Part shown: piece after piece, positions 2,404-8,587 of the stretch | Layout of the letters: every line of letters begins with the position of its first letter | Position numbering within the stretch: position 1 is the first letter of the stretch | Origin: Oscillospiraceae bacterium | GTDB lineage: Bacteria > Bacillota > Clostridia > Saccharofermentanales > Saccharofermentanaceae | Length of the DNA: 16,485 bases | NCBI GenBank assembly: GCA_902767145.1 | Contig: CACXGG010000209.1 | Coordinates: 1 to 16,485 of the forward strand | Reading direction: 5' to 3' | Program-made: the position numbers and the translations under genes | The notes under the pieces: model-generated | What the model was told of the DNA's origin: nothing | Seen by the model: the letters and a program-made list of their open reading frames with translations, nothing else | The model's database searches: none

Positions 2404-3246
2404 ATGATCAGAAAAACGGTAAGTATACTATTGATGATATGCATGGTCTTTTCCCTGGCTTCCTGTAAGGGCGGAGAAAAGTATACATATGGGGTATTCC
2501 TCGGAGCTGATCCTGAGGATATGGATGAGTTCTCCCCCTATGAGACGGTAGTCATCGATGCACAGTATTACAGTAAGTCTGAGATAAGTGAGCTTAAAGA
2601 TGATGGACATACTGTCTACAGCTATATAAATCTCGGATCTGTCGAGGAGTTCCGTGACTATTTTGACGATTATGATTATCTTACCTTAGGTGTCTACGAG
2701 AACTGGGAGGACGAAAGATGGGTGGATGTATCTGACCCCTCATGGCAGACCTTTATCCTGGGGATCGCTGAAGACCTTGTGGATAAAGGCGTTGACGGCC
2801 TTTTCGTGGATAATGTGGATGTTTATTATAACTATCCCACTGATGAGATATTTGATGGAGTTGCATCTATACTTAAGTCCTTCCAGGATATGGATACATA
2901 CGTATCTATCAATGGGGGAGACTGTTTCATGACGGAATATGCCTCCAGATACGGGAATATGAAAGATGTGGCAGATGCCATCAACCAGGAGACTGTATTC
3001 AGCTGTATTGACTGGGATGATGATACCTTCGGGACCAATCTCACTTCTGAACAGAGATATTTCCGTGAATATGTGGAGCTGGCATCTTCCTACGGCCTTG
3101 ATATCTATCTTCTTGAGTATACGACGGATGAGGAGCTTATAGAGCAGATAGATATCTACTGCTCACGAATGCAATATGTCTATTATGCCTCTGATTCCCT
3201 GGATCTGGTGACCCCGGGACAGGCTATCGGATCCCAGAAGATATAG
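2404..3246 (+). CDS. Lipoprotein with GH114-like (TM1410-type) TIM-barrel domain
   Basis: The N-terminus MIRKTVSILLMICMVFSLASC is a lipoprotein signal with lipobox L-A-S-C (Cys21), so the enzyme would be anchored outside the membrane. The ATG at 2404 lacks a strong Shine-Dalgarno, but a later start would destroy the signal, and translation may be coupled to the upstream lipoprotein. Residues about 28-275 follow the glycoside hydrolase 114 / TM1410 pattern: VVIDAQYYS (49-57), YSYINLGSVEEFR (72-84), WEDERWVDVSDPSW (101-114) and KGVDGLFVDNVDVY (128-141), where Asp136 lies at the presumed catalytic strand end. Characterised relatives are endo-alpha-1,4-polygalactosaminidases, but the substrate here is unknown. 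No strong terminator follows. Confidence 0.82.
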   Translation: MIRKTVSILLMICMVFSLASCKGGEKYTYGVFLGADPEDMDEFSPYETVVIDAQYYSKSEISELKDDGHTVYSYINLGSVEEFRDYFDDYDYLTLGVYENWEDERWVDVSDPSWQTFILGIAEDLVDKGVDGLFVDNVDVYYNYPTDEIFDGVASILKSFQDMDTYVSINGGDCFMTEYASRYGNMKDVADAINQETVFSCIDWDDDTFGTNLTSEQRYFREYVELASSYGLDIYLLEYTTDEELIEQIDIYCSRMQYVYYASDSLDLVTPGQAIGSQKI

Positions 3247-3592: not shown

Positions 3593-4855
3593 ATGCAGGA
3601 GATAAAATGCCCCAGCTGCGGCAAGGTATTCCAGGTAGATGAATCAGGTTATTCACAGATAGTCTCACAGGTCCGTGACCATGAGTTCCATGCAGAGCTG
3701 GAAAGACGCGAAAAGGAACTGGAAGAGAAGAAGGAGAGCGACCTTCAGATAGTTCGGATGCAGCAGGAGAAGGAGAATGAATCAGCCCTTCTTCAGAAGG
3801 ACCGCGAGATAGCTGAGCTTAAGAGCCAACTGGAAAGACTCGCTGCCGAGAATAAGGTGGAAGTAACAAACCTCAAGTCCAGGATCGACGGCTTTGAGAA
3901 TGAGAAGAAACTTGCTGTTTCAGAGGCTGTCTCCAAGAAGGATCTGGAGATCGCCGGCAAGGTGAATGAGCTCACTGTACTTCAGGGTAAGATGGACAGC
4001 CAGACTGCCCAGTTGGAACTGGAGAAGAAGGCCCTTAAGGAGTCTTATGAGCAGACCATCAAGCTCAAGGATGAGGAGATAGAGAGGGTCAAGGACTTCA
4101 AGTCAAAGCAGTCCACAAAGATGGTGGGTGAGAGCCTTGAGCAGCACTGCCAGAATGAGTTCAACAAGCTTCGTATGACCGCATTTCCAAATGCTTATTT
4201 TGAGAAGGATAATGATGCCAAGTCCGGAAGTAAGGGCGACTTTATCTTCAGGGAAGCTTCCTCTGACGGAGTGGAGTTCATATCCATCATGTTCGAGATG
4301 AAGAACGAGATGGATACCACTGCCAGCAAGCACAAGAATGAGGACTTTTTCAAGGAGCTTGATAAGGACAGAAAAGAGAAGGGATGCGAATATGCTGTTC
4401 TCGTATCCATGCTGGAGGCAGATAACGATTACTACAATACGGGTATTGTGGATGTTTCCTACAAGTACGAGAAGATGTATGTCATTCGTCCCCAGATGTT
4501 CATTCCCATGATCACCCTTCTGCGTAACGCAGCTCTTAATTCCCTCAGGTATCAGAGGGAACTGTCAGTGGTCAGGAGCCAGCAGGTGGATATCGAGAAC
4601 TTCGAAACTAATATGAATAACTTCAAGGAGGCATTCGGAAGGAATTACCGTCTTGCCAGCGAGAAGTTCCAGAAGGCCATCGATGAGATCGACAAGAGTA
4701 TGGATCATCTTCAGAAGATAAAGGATGCGCTCCTTTCTTCCCAGAACAACCTGCGCCTGGCAAATGACAAGGCAGAGGATCTTTCCATCAAGAAGCTCAC
4801 GAAGAATGCCCCTTCAGTAAGGGCCATGTTCGATGAGCAGAAGAAGGAGGAGTGA
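3593..4855 (+). CDS. DUF2130 family coiled-coil protein, probable PD-(D/E)XK nuclease-like domain
   Basis: The ATG at 3593 follows AGAGGTG. The N-terminus MQEIKCPSCGKVF carries a single C6-x2-C9 knuckle. Residues about 28-185 are a long charged coiled coil (EELEEKKESDLQ, LKSQLERLAAENK and similar). The C-terminal part (about 186-400) matches DUF2130. It contains KGDFIF with Asp216 and FEMKNE with Glu235 and Lys237, a D...ExK pattern compatible with a PD-(D/E)XK nuclease core. It ends in a second helical coil. DUF2130 proteins are widespread and poorly characterised; nuclease activity is inference, not established. The stop codon directly abuts the stop of the convergent barstar gene with no terminator between them. 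Confidence 0.88.
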   Translation: MQEIKCPSCGKVFQVDESGYSQIVSQVRDHEFHAELERREKELEEKKESDLQIVRMQQEKENESALLQKDREIAELKSQLERLAAENKVEVTNLKSRIDGFENEKKLAVSEAVSKKDLEIAGKVNELTVLQGKMDSQTAQLELEKKALKESYEQTIKLKDEEIERVKDFKSKQSTKMVGESLEQHCQNEFNKLRMTAFPNAYFEKDNDAKSGSKGDFIFREASSDGVEFISIMFEMKNEMDTTASKHKNEDFFKELDKDRKEKGCEYAVLVSMLEADNDYYNTGIVDVSYKYEKMYVIRPQMFIPMITLLRNAALNSLRYQRELSVVRSQQVDIENFETNMNNFKEAFGRNYRLASEKFQKAIDEIDKSMDHLQKIKDALLSSQNNLRLANDKAEDLSIKKLTKNAPSVRAMFDEQKKEE

Positions 4856-4864
4856 TCACTCCTC
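4847..4864. repeat. 18-bp perfect palindrome joining two convergent stop codons
   Basis: GAGGAGTGATCACTCCTC is centred between 4855 and 4856. TGA (4853-4855) ends the DUF2130 gene and TCA (4856-4858) is the TGA of the minus-strand barstar gene; both proteins therefore end Glu-Glu. There is no loop or T-run, so it is not a normal terminator. Confidence 0.8.
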
Positions 4865-5140
4865 GTTTCCGTATTCGAACTCGTCTATAAACTCGTAGGT
4901 GAGACCCGGGTTGCTGACGGAGCTGTCTTCCACCACCTTTTCGAAGATGGTATAGAATTCCTCTGTTCCGTCTATTCCGTAGAACTGAAGATGGACATCG
5001 TTAAGTGATGTGAGTACATCGTGAAGGGCGTCGAAGTTATTGCCGTATTCATCCGGCAGGTCCAGTGCGGATCTTATGGCTTCGTGGAGTCCTTCTCTTG
5101 TATTTATTCCCGAAAGATCTATCGTTATGGTCTTAGTCAT
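4856..5140 (-). CDS. Barstar-family ribonuclease inhibitor
   Basis: The protein (94 aa) opens MTKTITIDLSGI and has LHEAIRSALDLPDEYGNNFDALHDVL, the barstar signature. Asp37 and Asp41 align with barstar Asp35 and Asp39, which fill the barnase active site. The positions of Tyr29 and Trp38 are Glu31 and His40 here, so the interface has changed. The start at 5140 is chosen because GAGG stands 6 nt before it. An upstream ATG at 5152 overlaps the RNase stop as ATGA and would add MRYS, so translation is coupled either way. The product is cytoplasmic. It lies directly downstream of a barnase homologue and should neutralise it before export. Confidence 0.92.
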   Translation of the reverse strand: MTKTITIDLSGINTREGLHEAIRSALDLPDEYGNNFDALHDVLTSLNDVHLQFYGIDGTEEFYTIFEKVVEDSSVSNPGLTYEFIDEFEYGNEE

Positions 5141-5148
5141 GCTGTACC

Positions 5149-5727
5149 TCATTCCTCACCGTAAAGAAGGGTGAAACTTGCATAGTGGTCGTCTGTGTAG
5201 TAGATGGTGGAGCAGTCTTCCGTGTAGATGATCCTCTTGGCTCCGCGGCTGTCTGCTCCCAGTGTGTCTATGTCGCATTCGCGGTATTCGCCGTCGGGAA
5301 GGAGTCCCTCGTAGTTTCCGAAGTAGTCTCCGCCTATGCACATGCCGGGGGCGTAGGGCTCAAGGGAACCGCCTTCCCATCCCAGGTCCCTGGCTTCGTT
5401 CTTTGTGATGAAGTTCTGGGGAAGACATCCGTAGGTGTAGATATAAAGGGAGACGTCTTCCATCGTTGTATAGGATCCGTTTTCGTCGATGAGTGCCTGA
5501 GTCGTTGTTTCAGGTTCTGTCTCTGCTACTGTTTCTGACTGAGTGGCGGGAGCTTCGGTCTCTTCTACTGCTTCAGTTGTCTCCGCTGCCTCTGTGGTCT
5601 CTTCTGTTACTTTGGCTTCCGCTCTCTGTGAATCGTAGCTTTCGGTATCGAGTTCGTATGATGAATATGCACAGCCTGAAAGAAGGAAGGCTGCCATAAG
5701 TATTATCGCTAAAAGTCTTTTTCGCAT
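5149..5727 (-). CDS. Lipid-anchored barnase-like ribonuclease
   Basis: MRKRLLAIILMAAFLLSGC is a lipoprotein signal with lipobox L-S-G-C (Cys19). Residues 38-77 are a Thr/Glu-rich tether. Residues about 82-192 align along the whole length of Bacillus barnase: LPQNFITKNEARDLGW (102-117), APGMCIGGDYFGNYEGLLP (126-144), YRECDID (148-154), DSRGAKRIIYTED (159-171), DDHYASFTLLYG (179-190). Catalytic residues are conserved: Glu150 (barnase Glu73), Arg165 (Arg87), His181 (His102), plus Lys109 (Lys27) and Arg161 (Arg83). The enzyme should therefore cleave RNA. Four cysteines (101, 130, 151, 172) are absent from barnase and could form disulfides outside the cell. AAAGGA precedes the ATG. It forms an operon with barstar. 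Lipid anchoring is unusual, as classical barnase is freely secreted. Confidence 0.93.
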   Translation of the reverse strand: MRKRLLAIILMAAFLLSGCAYSSYELDTESYDSQRAEAKVTEETTEAAETTEAVEETEAPATQSETVAETEPETTTQALIDENGSYTTMEDVSLYIYTYGCLPQNFITKNEARDLGWEGGSLEPYAPGMCIGGDYFGNYEGLLPDGEYRECDIDTLGADSRGAKRIIYTEDCSTIYYTDDHYASFTLLYGEE

Positions 5728-5796: not shown

Positions 5797-5829
5797 AGTT
5801 TTCGAAAAAAGAAGTAGCGGAGGGATACC

Positions 5830-6852
5830 ATGCAGTGGGTGGAGATAAAGATAGTAACTACGGAAGATGCTTCTGATGCCATATGCGAGATGCTGGCACA
5901 GGTAGGTGCTGACGGCATTGCAGTAAGCGACCCCTTTGAGATCGCCAGGATAATCGAGGATCCTGATTCCCTGGCATATGCAGACGAGGGATATATAGAG
6001 TCCCTGGGAACCGACGTCACCATAAAGGCTTATTTTGCAGAGTTCGATGACGGCATAAGGCTGGGTCCCAAGAGCGAGGAGTATGTTGATCCCAACGGCG
6101 TGGGTATGATCTACGGAAATCTCTCCGACAAGACCATGTCCGTGGAGGATGCCATGGCATTTGTTAAGGCAAGGCTGGAGTCCATAGGTGAGTTCCTGCC
6201 CCTGGGCAAGGGCTTTGACGGCTGGAGATATGTGCAGGACAAGGACTGGGAGAATGAGTGGAAGAAGGATTATAAGTCCTTCAGGATCTCTGAACGTGTG
6301 GTGATCTGTCCCACCTGGGAGGAATATGAGGAAGTCCCCGGCGATGTGGTTGTAAGGCTTGACCCGGGATCCGCCTTCGGTACCGGTACTCATGAGACCA
6401 CATCCATGTGCGCAAAGCTCCTGGATAAGGAAGTGAGGTCCGATGATTCTGTCCTGGATCTGGGAACAGGATCTGGAATACTTGCCATAATCTGCAGCAA
6501 GCTGGGAGCTCAGTCCGTTGAGGCAGTGGATATCGACCGCCTGGCTGTGGATGTGGCAGTGGAGAACTGCAGGGAGAACGGATGTCCCGATATCGACTGC
6601 TATACAGGAGAACTTAAGTCCGTTAAGGGTGATTCCTATACTCTCATCGTGGCAAATATCATCGCAGACATAATAGCGGCCATCGCTCCGGACGTTCCTT
6701 CAAGGCTCGCTCCCGGAGGACGCTTTATCTGCTCCGGCATCATAAATACAAAGCGCGGAAAGGTGGAGAAGGCACTGGCGGAAGCAGGCTTTACCATCGA
6801 TGAGTGCCATGAGAAGAATGACTGGCTGGCATATATCTGCCACTTGACATAA
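5830..6852 (+). CDS. prmA: Ribosomal protein L11 methyltransferase PrmA
   Basis: PrmA uses S-adenosylmethionine to trimethylate lysines and the N-terminus of ribosomal protein L11. The 340-aa product has the N-terminal substrate-recognition domain (about 1-95), a linker, and a class I methyltransferase domain. The PrmA hallmark DPGSAFGTGTHETT is at 178-191, SAM motif I VLDLGTGSG at 208-216, and VANI at 274-277 in the position of the catalytic loop. GGAGGG (5819-5824) precedes the ATG. In many Firmicutes dnaJ-prmA-rsmE are adjacent; here prmA stands alone with its own promoter, and its last codons contain the -35 box of the next transcription unit. Confidence 0.97.
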   Translation: MQWVEIKIVTTEDASDAICEMLAQVGADGIAVSDPFEIARIIEDPDSLAYADEGYIESLGTDVTIKAYFAEFDDGIRLGPKSEEYVDPNGVGMIYGNLSDKTMSVEDAMAFVKARLESIGEFLPLGKGFDGWRYVQDKDWENEWKKDYKSFRISERVVICPTWEEYEEVPGDVVVRLDPGSAFGTGTHETTSMCAKLLDKEVRSDDSVLDLGTGSGILAIICSKLGAQSVEAVDIDRLAVDVAVENCRENGCPDIDCYTGELKSVKGDSYTLIVANIIADIIAAIAPDVPSRLAPGGRFICSGIINTKRGKVEKALAEAGFTIDECHEKNDWLAYICHLT

Positions 6853-6872
6853 GGAGCGGTGAACTGTAAAAT
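6844..6872 (+). promoter_or_regulatory. Strong sigma-A promoter of the T-box/trpB2 unit
   Basis: A consensus TTGACA (6844-6849), exact 17-bp spacer and TAAAAT (6867-6872, 5/6) are present. The -35 lies inside the last codons of prmA. Start of transcription is expected near 6879, just before T-box Stem I. Confidence 0.85.
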
Positions 6873-6878
6873 CGCTTT

Positions 6879-7152
6879 AGTTTGATAAACAAAACCGATC
6901 AAGTCGGGAGTAGTAGTCGGACAAGGTCATTAGCTAAGAGAGAGCTGCCGGCGGTGAGATGGCAGCAGCGAAGATCCCGATGAATGGACCCGATGAGGGC
7001 GATCAGGAAATGGATCGACGGGAGCCTCATCCGTTATCAGCGGGGCGCGTTTGTTGGAACGTGATCAAAGAGGGTTGCTAAGGCAACCAACTATAGGTGG
7101 TACCGCAGGAATATTCTTGTCCTATATCGAGTGATCGATGTAGGGCATTTTT
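6879..7152 (+). promoter_or_regulatory. T-box riboswitch, tryptophan (UGG) specifier
   Basis: Stem I has GAGTAGTAG (6908-6916) opposite GAA followed by specifier TGG at 6985-6987 and purine A. TCGGG (6904-6908) pairs with CCCGA (6989-6993) beside the specifier loop. AGAGAGCTGCCGG and GGTGAGATGGCAGC are the conserved distal Stem I elements. The antiterminator T-box AGGTGGTACCGC is at 7095-7106, followed by a terminator. UGG decodes tryptophan, so uncharged tRNA-Trp should permit read-through into trpB2. The T-box bulge reads TGGT, whose U would wobble with a G discriminator base in tRNA-Trp. Confidence 0.95.
7118..7152 (+). terminator. Regulated terminator of the Trp T-box
   Basis: CCTATATCGA (7121-7130) pairs with TCGATGTAGG (7135-7144) around GTGA, with three more pairs outside, then a T-run to 7152. 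It is mutually exclusive with the antiterminator helix. Confidence 0.88.
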
Positions 7153-7213: not shown

Positions 7214-8587
7214 ATGGCAAGAGAACCCAAAAGAATATTCCTTACAGAGGAGGAAATGCCCAAGCAGTGGTATAACGTCCGTGCGGATATGAAGAATAAG
7301 CCCGCACCCCTGATCCACCCCGGTACGCATGAGCCCCTCACAGTCGAGCAGATGTCTCCCATCTTCTGCGAAGAGCTCTGCAGACAGGAAGTAGACAACG
7401 ATACAAAGTATTTCGATATCCCCGAAGAGGTACAGGAGTTCTATAAGATCTTCAGACCCTCACCCCTTATCAGGGCATATGAGCTGGAGAAGGAGCTCGG
7501 CACACCTGCCAGGATCTACTACAAGTTCGAAGGTAACAACACCTCCGGATCCCACAAGCTCAATTCCGCTGCTGCCCAGGTATATTACGCCAAGAAGCAG
7601 GGACTTAAGGGCCTTACAACAGAGACCGGTGCAGGCCAGTGGGGAACAGCCCTTGCCATGGCATGTAAGCACTTCAACATCCCTCTTACAGTATTCATGG
7701 TAAAGTGCTCCTACGAGCAGAAGCCTTACAGAAAGGCCATCATCGAGACCTTCGGTGCTGATATCATCCCTTCACCCTCCAACACAACAAACGTTGGACG
7801 CGCCATCCTCGAAAAGTATCCTGAGACAACAGGATCCCTGGGTTGCGCCATCTCCGAGGCTGTTGAGGTCGCTACATCCACTGAAGGATACAGATATGTA
7901 CTTGGTTCAGTACTCAACCAGGTACTCCTTCACCAGTCCATCATCGGTGAGGAGGCTAAGCTCCAGCTGGCTAAGATCGACAAGTATCCCGATATCGTTA
8001 TCGGATGCGCAGGCGGCGGATCCAACCTCGGCGGTATCATGTCAGCATTCATGAGAGATAAGCTGGAAGGAAAGAAGAGCCCTTACTTTATCGCAGTAGA
8101 GCCTGCATCATGTCCGTCCATGACAAGAGGCGAGTTCAGATATGACTTCTGTGATACAGGTCACGTCTGCCCTCTGGCTAAGATGTACACCATCGGTTCC
8201 GAGTTCATCCCTTCACCTTCACATGCAGGCGGACTCAGATACCACGGTATGTCTCCCATCATTTCCCAGCTCTACCACGACGGTCTTATCGATGAGGCCA
8301 GGGCTGTTGAGCAGACAAAGGTATTCGAGGCAGCTAACCTCTTCGCCAAGACAGAGACCATCCTGCCTGCTCCCGAGTCCTCACATGCCATCCGTGCAGC
8401 CATTGACGAGGCTCTCAAGTGCAAGGAGACAGGGGAGGAGAAGACGATCCTCTTCAACCTTACTGGTACAGGGTTCTTCGACATGAGCGCATACATGTCC
8501 TACCTTGACGGATCCATGGGCGATTTCATCCCTTCCGACGATGATATCAAGGCCGGATTGGCCCAGCTTCCCGCTGTTGACAGATAA
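7214..8587 (+). CDS. trpB2: Tryptophan synthase beta chain-like protein, TrpB2 type
   Basis: This is a PLP enzyme that condenses indole with serine (or O-phosphoserine in some TrpB2) to tryptophan. The start at 7214 follows AAAGGAGG (7198-7205); the frame is open further upstream but only through the T-box. The 457-aa length and N-terminal extension fit TrpB2 rather than TrpB1. EGNNTSGSHKLNSA holds the PLP lysine (Lys115), ETGAGQWG the catalytic Glu137, and GCAGGGSN the PLP-phosphate loop. No trpA or other trp gene is in the window, so it resembles the stand-alone TrpB2o group that can salvage indole. The upstream Trp T-box supports a role in tryptophan supply. A terminator closes this single-gene unit. 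Confidence 0.95.
   Translation: MAREPKRIFLTEEEMPKQWYNVRADMKNKPAPLIHPGTHEPLTVEQMSPIFCEELCRQEVDNDTKYFDIPEEVQEFYKIFRPSPLIRAYELEKELGTPARIYYKFEGNNTSGSHKLNSAAAQVYYAKKQGLKGLTTETGAGQWGTALAMACKHFNIPLTVFMVKCSYEQKPYRKAIIETFGADIIPSPSNTTNVGRAILEKYPETTGSLGCAISEAVEVATSTEGYRYVLGSVLNQVLLHQSIIGEEAKLQLAKIDKYPDIVIGCAGGGSNLGGIMSAFMRDKLEGKKSPYFIAVEPASCPSMTRGEFRYDFCDTGHVCPLAKMYTIGSEFIPSPSHAGGLRYHGMSPIISQLYHDGLIDEARAVEQTKVFEAANLFAKTETILPAPESSHAIRAAIDEALKCKETGEEKTILFNLTGTGFFDMSAYMSYLDGSMGDFIPSDDDIKAGLAQLPAVDR

Follow-up and report, generated by a model that had tools for sequence, protein, structure and literature searches.

Few protein pairs have been studied as closely as barnase and barstar, which are usually viewed as an enzyme that is secreted freely and the inhibitor of that enzyme. 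In Bacillus licheniformis, the RNase balifase is encoded in one operon with a barstar orthologue, carries a signal peptide and a propeptide, is secreted, and is induced by phosphate starvation (PMC5021464). The accessible text of Zhang et al. 2012 describes simple barnase-barstar pairs as widely distributed, possibly an incipient stage that shows no notable polymorphism, alongside Tox-Barnase/Imm-Barstar polymorphic toxins, and in that text a barnase lipobox goes unmentioned (PMC3482391). The SitA toxins of myxobacteria are lipoproteins with a cognate inhibitor gene, and SitA1 has a C-terminal nuclease domain; they are polymorphic and are delivered by outer-membrane exchange (PMC5562445). Among the open-licence papers listed by our searches, we found no description of a lipid-anchored barnase, judged on titles and the starts of abstracts.

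We compared these systems with a barnase-barstar pair in a 16,485-nucleotide stretch of DNA from an Oscillospiraceae bacterium, hereafter the window (Table 1). The pair resembles Bacillus barnase, an RNase of the N1/T1 superfamily, and its barstar in fold, in catalytic residues, in barstar Asp35 and Asp39, and in combining a predicted exported RNase with an inhibitor. It differs in having a lipobox and an acidic linker where Bacillus barnase has a cleaved signal, Tyr for Arg59, His for Trp38, an inhibitor gene directly downstream, and a domain net charge of -14 compared to +1 for the printed 1brg fragment of barnase. The toxin-immunity gene order is common to the Tox-Barnase/Imm-Barstar systems, whereas by Pfam the window protein has no trafficking domain, and nothing in the pair points to delivery by outer-membrane exchange, as in the polymorphic SitA toxins. 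The pair is real and widespread and its parts are ordinary; the tether is the new element.

Table 1 Features of the barnase-barstar locus in window coordinates.
Feature	Position	Strand	Basis
Barnase-family RNase precursor, 192 aa, predicted lipoprotein	5149..5727	-	ORF, Pfam and PDB
Lipoprotein-type signal, residues 1-19, lipobox L-S-G-C, Cys19	5671..5727	-	Sequence and heuristic rule
Linker, residues 20-83, 64 residues, Glu/Thr/Ala-rich, net charge -17	5479..5670	-	
Barnase domain, residues 84-192, catalytic set intact, Tyr139, net charge -14	5152..5478	-	
Barstar homologue, 98 aa from the first ATG, 94 aa from 5140	4856..5152	-	PF01337
GAGG, possible ribosome-binding site for the barstar ATG at 5140	5147..5150	-	Sequence reading, inferred
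18-bp inverted repeat, weak terminator-like, at the convergent ends of a DUF2130 gene and barstar	4847..4864	-	

Both reading frames given in the preliminary description agree with the ORF list and the sequence, and its account of a lipobox cysteine followed by a tether and a full barnase domain was borne out. The only Pfam match of the RNase protein was Ribonuclease (PF00545, 69 bits, E 5.2e-19, residues 95-187), with no trafficking module, and its best sequence matches among solved structures were barnases (PDB, E about 1e-19). A single-chain AlphaFold model of the domain (pLDDT 91.8) gave barnases as the best fold matches (1b20_A, TMq 0.87, 44% identity). Lys109, Glu150, Arg161, Arg165 and His181, earlier named as retained residues, align with barnase K27, E73, R83, R87 and H102, and Tyr139 falls in the Arg59 column; K27 was kept in 119 of 120 pairs compared across the family and the other four residues in all 120, such that the window domain is probably an active RNase. 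Disulfide pairing of the domain cysteines (Cys101, 130, 151 and 172) was rejected as a family trait: Cys151 is invariant, yet some relatives have Ser at 130. Cys19 comes after a hydrophobic stretch as the last residue of L-S-G-C, a leader type from which lipidation at this residue would be expected, and proteins of the LspA and Lgt families are encoded in the genome. The earlier view of a tethered rather than freely secreted RNase was upheld as a prediction, which would place the enzyme at the outer face of the membrane.

The adjacent gene was confirmed as a barstar homologue, although Pfam recognised its N-terminal half only (PF01337, 52.9 bits, E 3.6e-14, residues 7-55) and no PDB barstar was matched by sequence at E 0.001. 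Its AlphaFold model, likewise a single chain (mean pLDDT 83.9), matched solved barstars, the best being 1bgs_E (TMq 0.76, E 1.9e-5). The earliest candidate ATG of barstar has a 4-nt overlap with the stop codon of barnase, while the GAGG lies 6 nt ahead of the second, a placement that makes the 94-residue form, starting 8 nt past the barnase stop, the likelier product. Translational coupling of the two genes is plausible. The barnase gene had no Rfam match, the promoter scan gave a result no better than shuffles, and the terminator-like sites were weak (2 found, with 1.4 expected in shuffles).

We assessed the distribution of the family first among 59 near genomes, including the window's own, of which 35 belong to its genus and 24 to the rest of the order. 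Members were present in 19 (17 of the 35 genus genomes and 2 of the remaining 24), and every one of the 19 had a lipobox-type leader and a barstar directly downstream; apparent absences of barstar in G026, G002 and G013 were discarded, as the DNA holds an open barstar frame in each. The lipobox-barnase/barstar arrangement therefore recurs in other Clostridia and, with 17 of 35 genus genomes carrying the pair, is not a one-off feature. Two further gene-bearing genus members came from a class-level sample, G335 and G320, the latter encoding a lipobox barnase (L145) with no adjacent barstar; its genome has two barstar matches at other sites.

A second set comprised named loci, the best 80 of at least 584 stretches encoding a relative, which lean to the window's type because they are the closest. 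Three members cut at the 5' end were set aside and three duplicates of near-genome contigs (L039, L056 and L090) were dropped from the leader tally and the pair set while being kept in counts of barstar adjacency. Among the 74 five-prime-complete members of these best 80 of at least 584, 68 had a lipobox and the other 6 a different hydrophobic N-terminus; before duplicate removal, lipobox counts for the same best 80 were 73 of 77 by match coordinates and 71 of 77 by a stricter start rule. In the class sample, 57 of 393 genomes carried 61 matches (27 lipobox, 20 with another hydrophobic N-terminus and 14 signal-less). The signal-less forms share a C-terminal motif different from the others, and we label as phage-type the 17 of 61 matches with this motif (the 14 signal-less and 3 labelled SPI/TM), which we take to be linked to phage. 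The 44 non-phage-type members comprised 27 with a lipobox, including one divergent match in G417 (E 3.8e-5) that lacks the His-containing DHY motif, and 17 with another hydrophobic N-terminus, either a cleaved signal or an uncleaved anchor.

Lipobox calls were made by a heuristic rule. This rule is permissive, since random placement of the lipobox Cys still left a lipobox call in 5764 of 22600 draws; a better control is the baseline from the 80 named loci, in which 22 of the 149 other ORFs carrying a hydrophobic stretch at the N-terminus passed. One A-x-A signal (L261) was labelled lipobox by the rule and is counted here as free-type by eye, and G335 and L059 were both retained despite an identical leader, so that the sets are not fully non-redundant. 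Across the near, named and class sets, every 5'-complete non-phage-type member had a hydrophobic export or anchor segment. Tethering thus appears to be a recurrent variant of barnase, and the usual non-phage-type barnase of the sampled Clostridia has a lipobox or another hydrophobic N-terminus.

In a phylum-level sample the family occurred in 20 of 398 genomes (24 matches), and leaders were read for 20 of the 24, the other four being already in earlier sets. Two of these 20 had no signal (G806 and G527), and a barstar lay downstream of 16. Two genomes each encode one lipobox and one A-x-A barnase by eye, both with a downstream barstar (G506, L247/L261; G775, L249/L260), and in G542 (L254/L262) an anchor-like and an A-x-A barnase lie about 8 kb apart, with a barstar beside the A-x-A form and none found in the stretch for the anchor-like form. 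The five short A-x-A domains had net charges of +3 to +5. Paired within genomes, the free-type domains carried +4 (G506), +4 (G775) and +3 (G542), compared to -3, -3 and +2 for the lipobox or anchor-like domains. Acidity is nevertheless no rule for tethered forms, since the lipobox domain of G823 has a net charge of +10 and the net charges of lipobox domains span -16 to +4 in the near genomes and -17 to +3 in the class set. The strongest reason to regard tethering as functional is the coexistence of free and lipobox forms in one genome, and such side-by-side forms in two phylum genomes make the purpose of barnase testable by comparison.

At 64 residues, the linker would extend about 23 nm when fully stretched, by our estimate, and may not clear the Gram-positive wall, such that the domain probably acts within or just under it. 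Leader and linker together were 50% identical between the window and G003, and within our sample, which consists of barnase-bearing proteins only, leader and linker were variable while the barnase domain was constant. The longest linker of the near set, in L033 (G031, 5817-6923), has 129 residues, part of them resembling a folded segment.

We assessed barstar adjacency as a profile match within 600 nt downstream at loci with enough sequence. It was found at 138 of 153 loci, comprising 19 of 19 near loci, 72 of 79 named loci (from the best 80 of at least 584) and 47 of 55 class loci. For the 15 loci without an adjacent barstar, a match was present elsewhere in 10 of the 15 genomes, including two weak ones (E about 2e-5 and 4e-5). 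Lipobox barnases without an adjacent barstar were L064, L067, L072, L089, L092 and L104 among the named loci and L162 (G377), L164 (G260) and L167 (G290) in the class sample. No barstar was found in the whole genome for L067, L072 and L104, which are three of seven named-set genomes searched and may be incomplete. At the class level, 54 of 57 barnase-bearing genomes encoded a barstar somewhere; the three in which none was found include G171, where the barnase lies at a contig end. Barstar and RNase are thus not strictly linked, incomplete genomes permitting.

The preliminary description had also proposed a private, co-evolved interface on the basis of Glu and His at barstar positions 29 and 38. 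Both residues are present in the window barstar, along with Asp35 and Asp39, but the proposal was overstated, as the absence of Trp38 is family-wide. In 120 barnase-barstar pairs, with phage-type members left out, position 38 was Tyr in 56, His in 31, Phe in 18 and Trp in 9, and position 29 was Tyr in 58, Trp in 28 and Glu in 6, which makes the window's His38 ordinary and its Glu29 unusual for the family. Asp35 and Asp39 were present in 119 of 120 pairs, and the one other row is a gap. Barnase Arg59, a main contact of barstar (PMC4207830, PMC8837141), was present in 9 of the 120 pairs, with Tyr in 105. Trp38 occurred with Arg59 in 7 of 9 pairs compared to 2 of 111 without Arg59; this co-variation was not significant after tree correction, where only three well-supported independent contrasts put significance out of reach. 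With interfaces rearranged between Arg59/Trp38 and Tyr59 combined with Tyr, His or Phe at 38, these roughly 120 natural pairs are material for studies of binding specificity.

On balance, we lean towards an envelope-tethered extracytoplasmic RNase with cytoplasmic self-protection. A barnase-fold RNase would be exported by Sec, lipidated at Cys19 and held extracytoplasmically at the membrane by the flexible acidic linker, where it would degrade RNA reaching the envelope, either as a nutrient or phosphate supply or in clearing foreign RNA. The barstar made from the next gene would remain in the cytoplasm and neutralise RNase that folds before export, a self-protective role suggested by adjacency and by the Bacillus precedent. 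The sequence itself shows the domain identities, the complete catalytic set, the type of leader, the adjacency and the conservation, while lipidation, RNase activity, inhibition and, most of all, the physiological role of the pair are what we infer here. Induction of Bacillus binase and balifase by phosphate starvation is consistent with an envelope RNase (PMC5021464). No nucleotide-uptake or phosphate gene recurred beside the pair in 80 neighbourhoods, for which the clustering was insensitive.

Alternatively, the locus could be an antagonism module in which the tethered RNase reaches neighbours via contact, vesicles or shedding and the barstar confers immunity to the RNase of siblings, a possibility that we regard as doubtful. 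The order of RNase then inhibitor fits it, as does the precedent of SitA for a lipoprotein toxin (PMC5562445), and so does the patchy presence in the genus (17 of 35 genomes). Barstar also diverges far faster than barnase, with genus median pairwise identities of 0.31 and 0.72; between the window and G003, however, dN/dS was 0.137 for barstar, 0.099 for the barnase domain and 0.098 for the neighbouring prmA (dS 0.64 to 1.2), indicating that barstar evolves faster while under constraint. The RNase domain, under purifying selection like prmA, is conserved rather than diversified, which speaks against antagonism. Barstars without barnase point the other way, being found in 17 of 336 class genomes that lack barnase and in a gene neighbourhood common to two genomes of the order, where G038 (L035, 7615-10354) has barnase and barstar and G044 (L199, 3525-5273) only a barstar 77% identical to that of G038. 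This difference may reflect loss of the RNase in G044 or its gain in G038, and a barstar-only locus is unexpected if barstar serves its own partner only. Orphan barstars are nonetheless ambiguous evidence because barstars partner other RNases too, and two barstar-only genomes of the genus hold, by reading, a barstar of a distinct type, with no barnase match in the genome (G022, L197; G032, L198). Also against antagonism, no delivery gene or third partner was seen in the 80 neighbourhoods, at the same insensitive clustering, and Pfam placed no further domain in the RNase protein. Cationic RNases enter cells better, so the strong negative charge of the domain, in contrast to the cationic free barnases, would argue against entry into other cells, and together with the short linker it would be unfavourable for crossing a neighbour's envelope.

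A broader form of this idea, that lipid-tethered barnases are widespread surface weapons of Clostridia passed to close neighbours, with the fast-evolving barstars as immunity genes, seems to us unlikely; were it true, barstar immunity genes could outlive the RNase, perhaps as at G044. We consider it improbable that the RNase is functionally free, the lipoprotein being shed or clipped at the linker so that the anchor only delays release. The linker is of low complexity and poorly conserved, hence perhaps protease-sensitive, and free-type barnases occur in other phylum genomes; against this, all complete non-phage-type members retain a lipobox or another hydrophobic N-terminus, and G506 and G775 each encode both forms. 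A role in defence against incoming RNA or RNA phages, or as a cytoplasmic toxin-antitoxin pair, would fit the high toxicity of intracellular barnase and its relief by barstar, and is very improbable given the export-type leader of each complete non-phage-type member in three sets and the different C-terminal motif of the signal-less forms (14 of 61 class matches).

The pair does not keep a fixed genomic position. It adjoins prmA in the window, G003, G010, G019 and G028. Among another 18 genomes of the genus, the upstream neighbour of prmA was, with names assigned by reading, dnaJ-like in 12 and a different gene in 4, and 2 had too little sequence. At least seven of these 18 have the pair at another site, and its location thus differs across the genus. 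Besides barnase and barstar, no gene family was common to more than 10 of the 80 neighbourhoods, in an insensitive clustering that united just 61 of 80 barnases and 24 of 80 barstars in a single family each. Elsewhere in the window, two more lipoprotein-type ORFs lie on the forward strand (1406-2341 and 2404-3246), one with a long Glu run and one of the GH114 family, and a T-box leader (RF00230, 103.9 bits, 6889-7127, forward strand) precedes an ORF ending at 8587 that is TrpB-like by reading.
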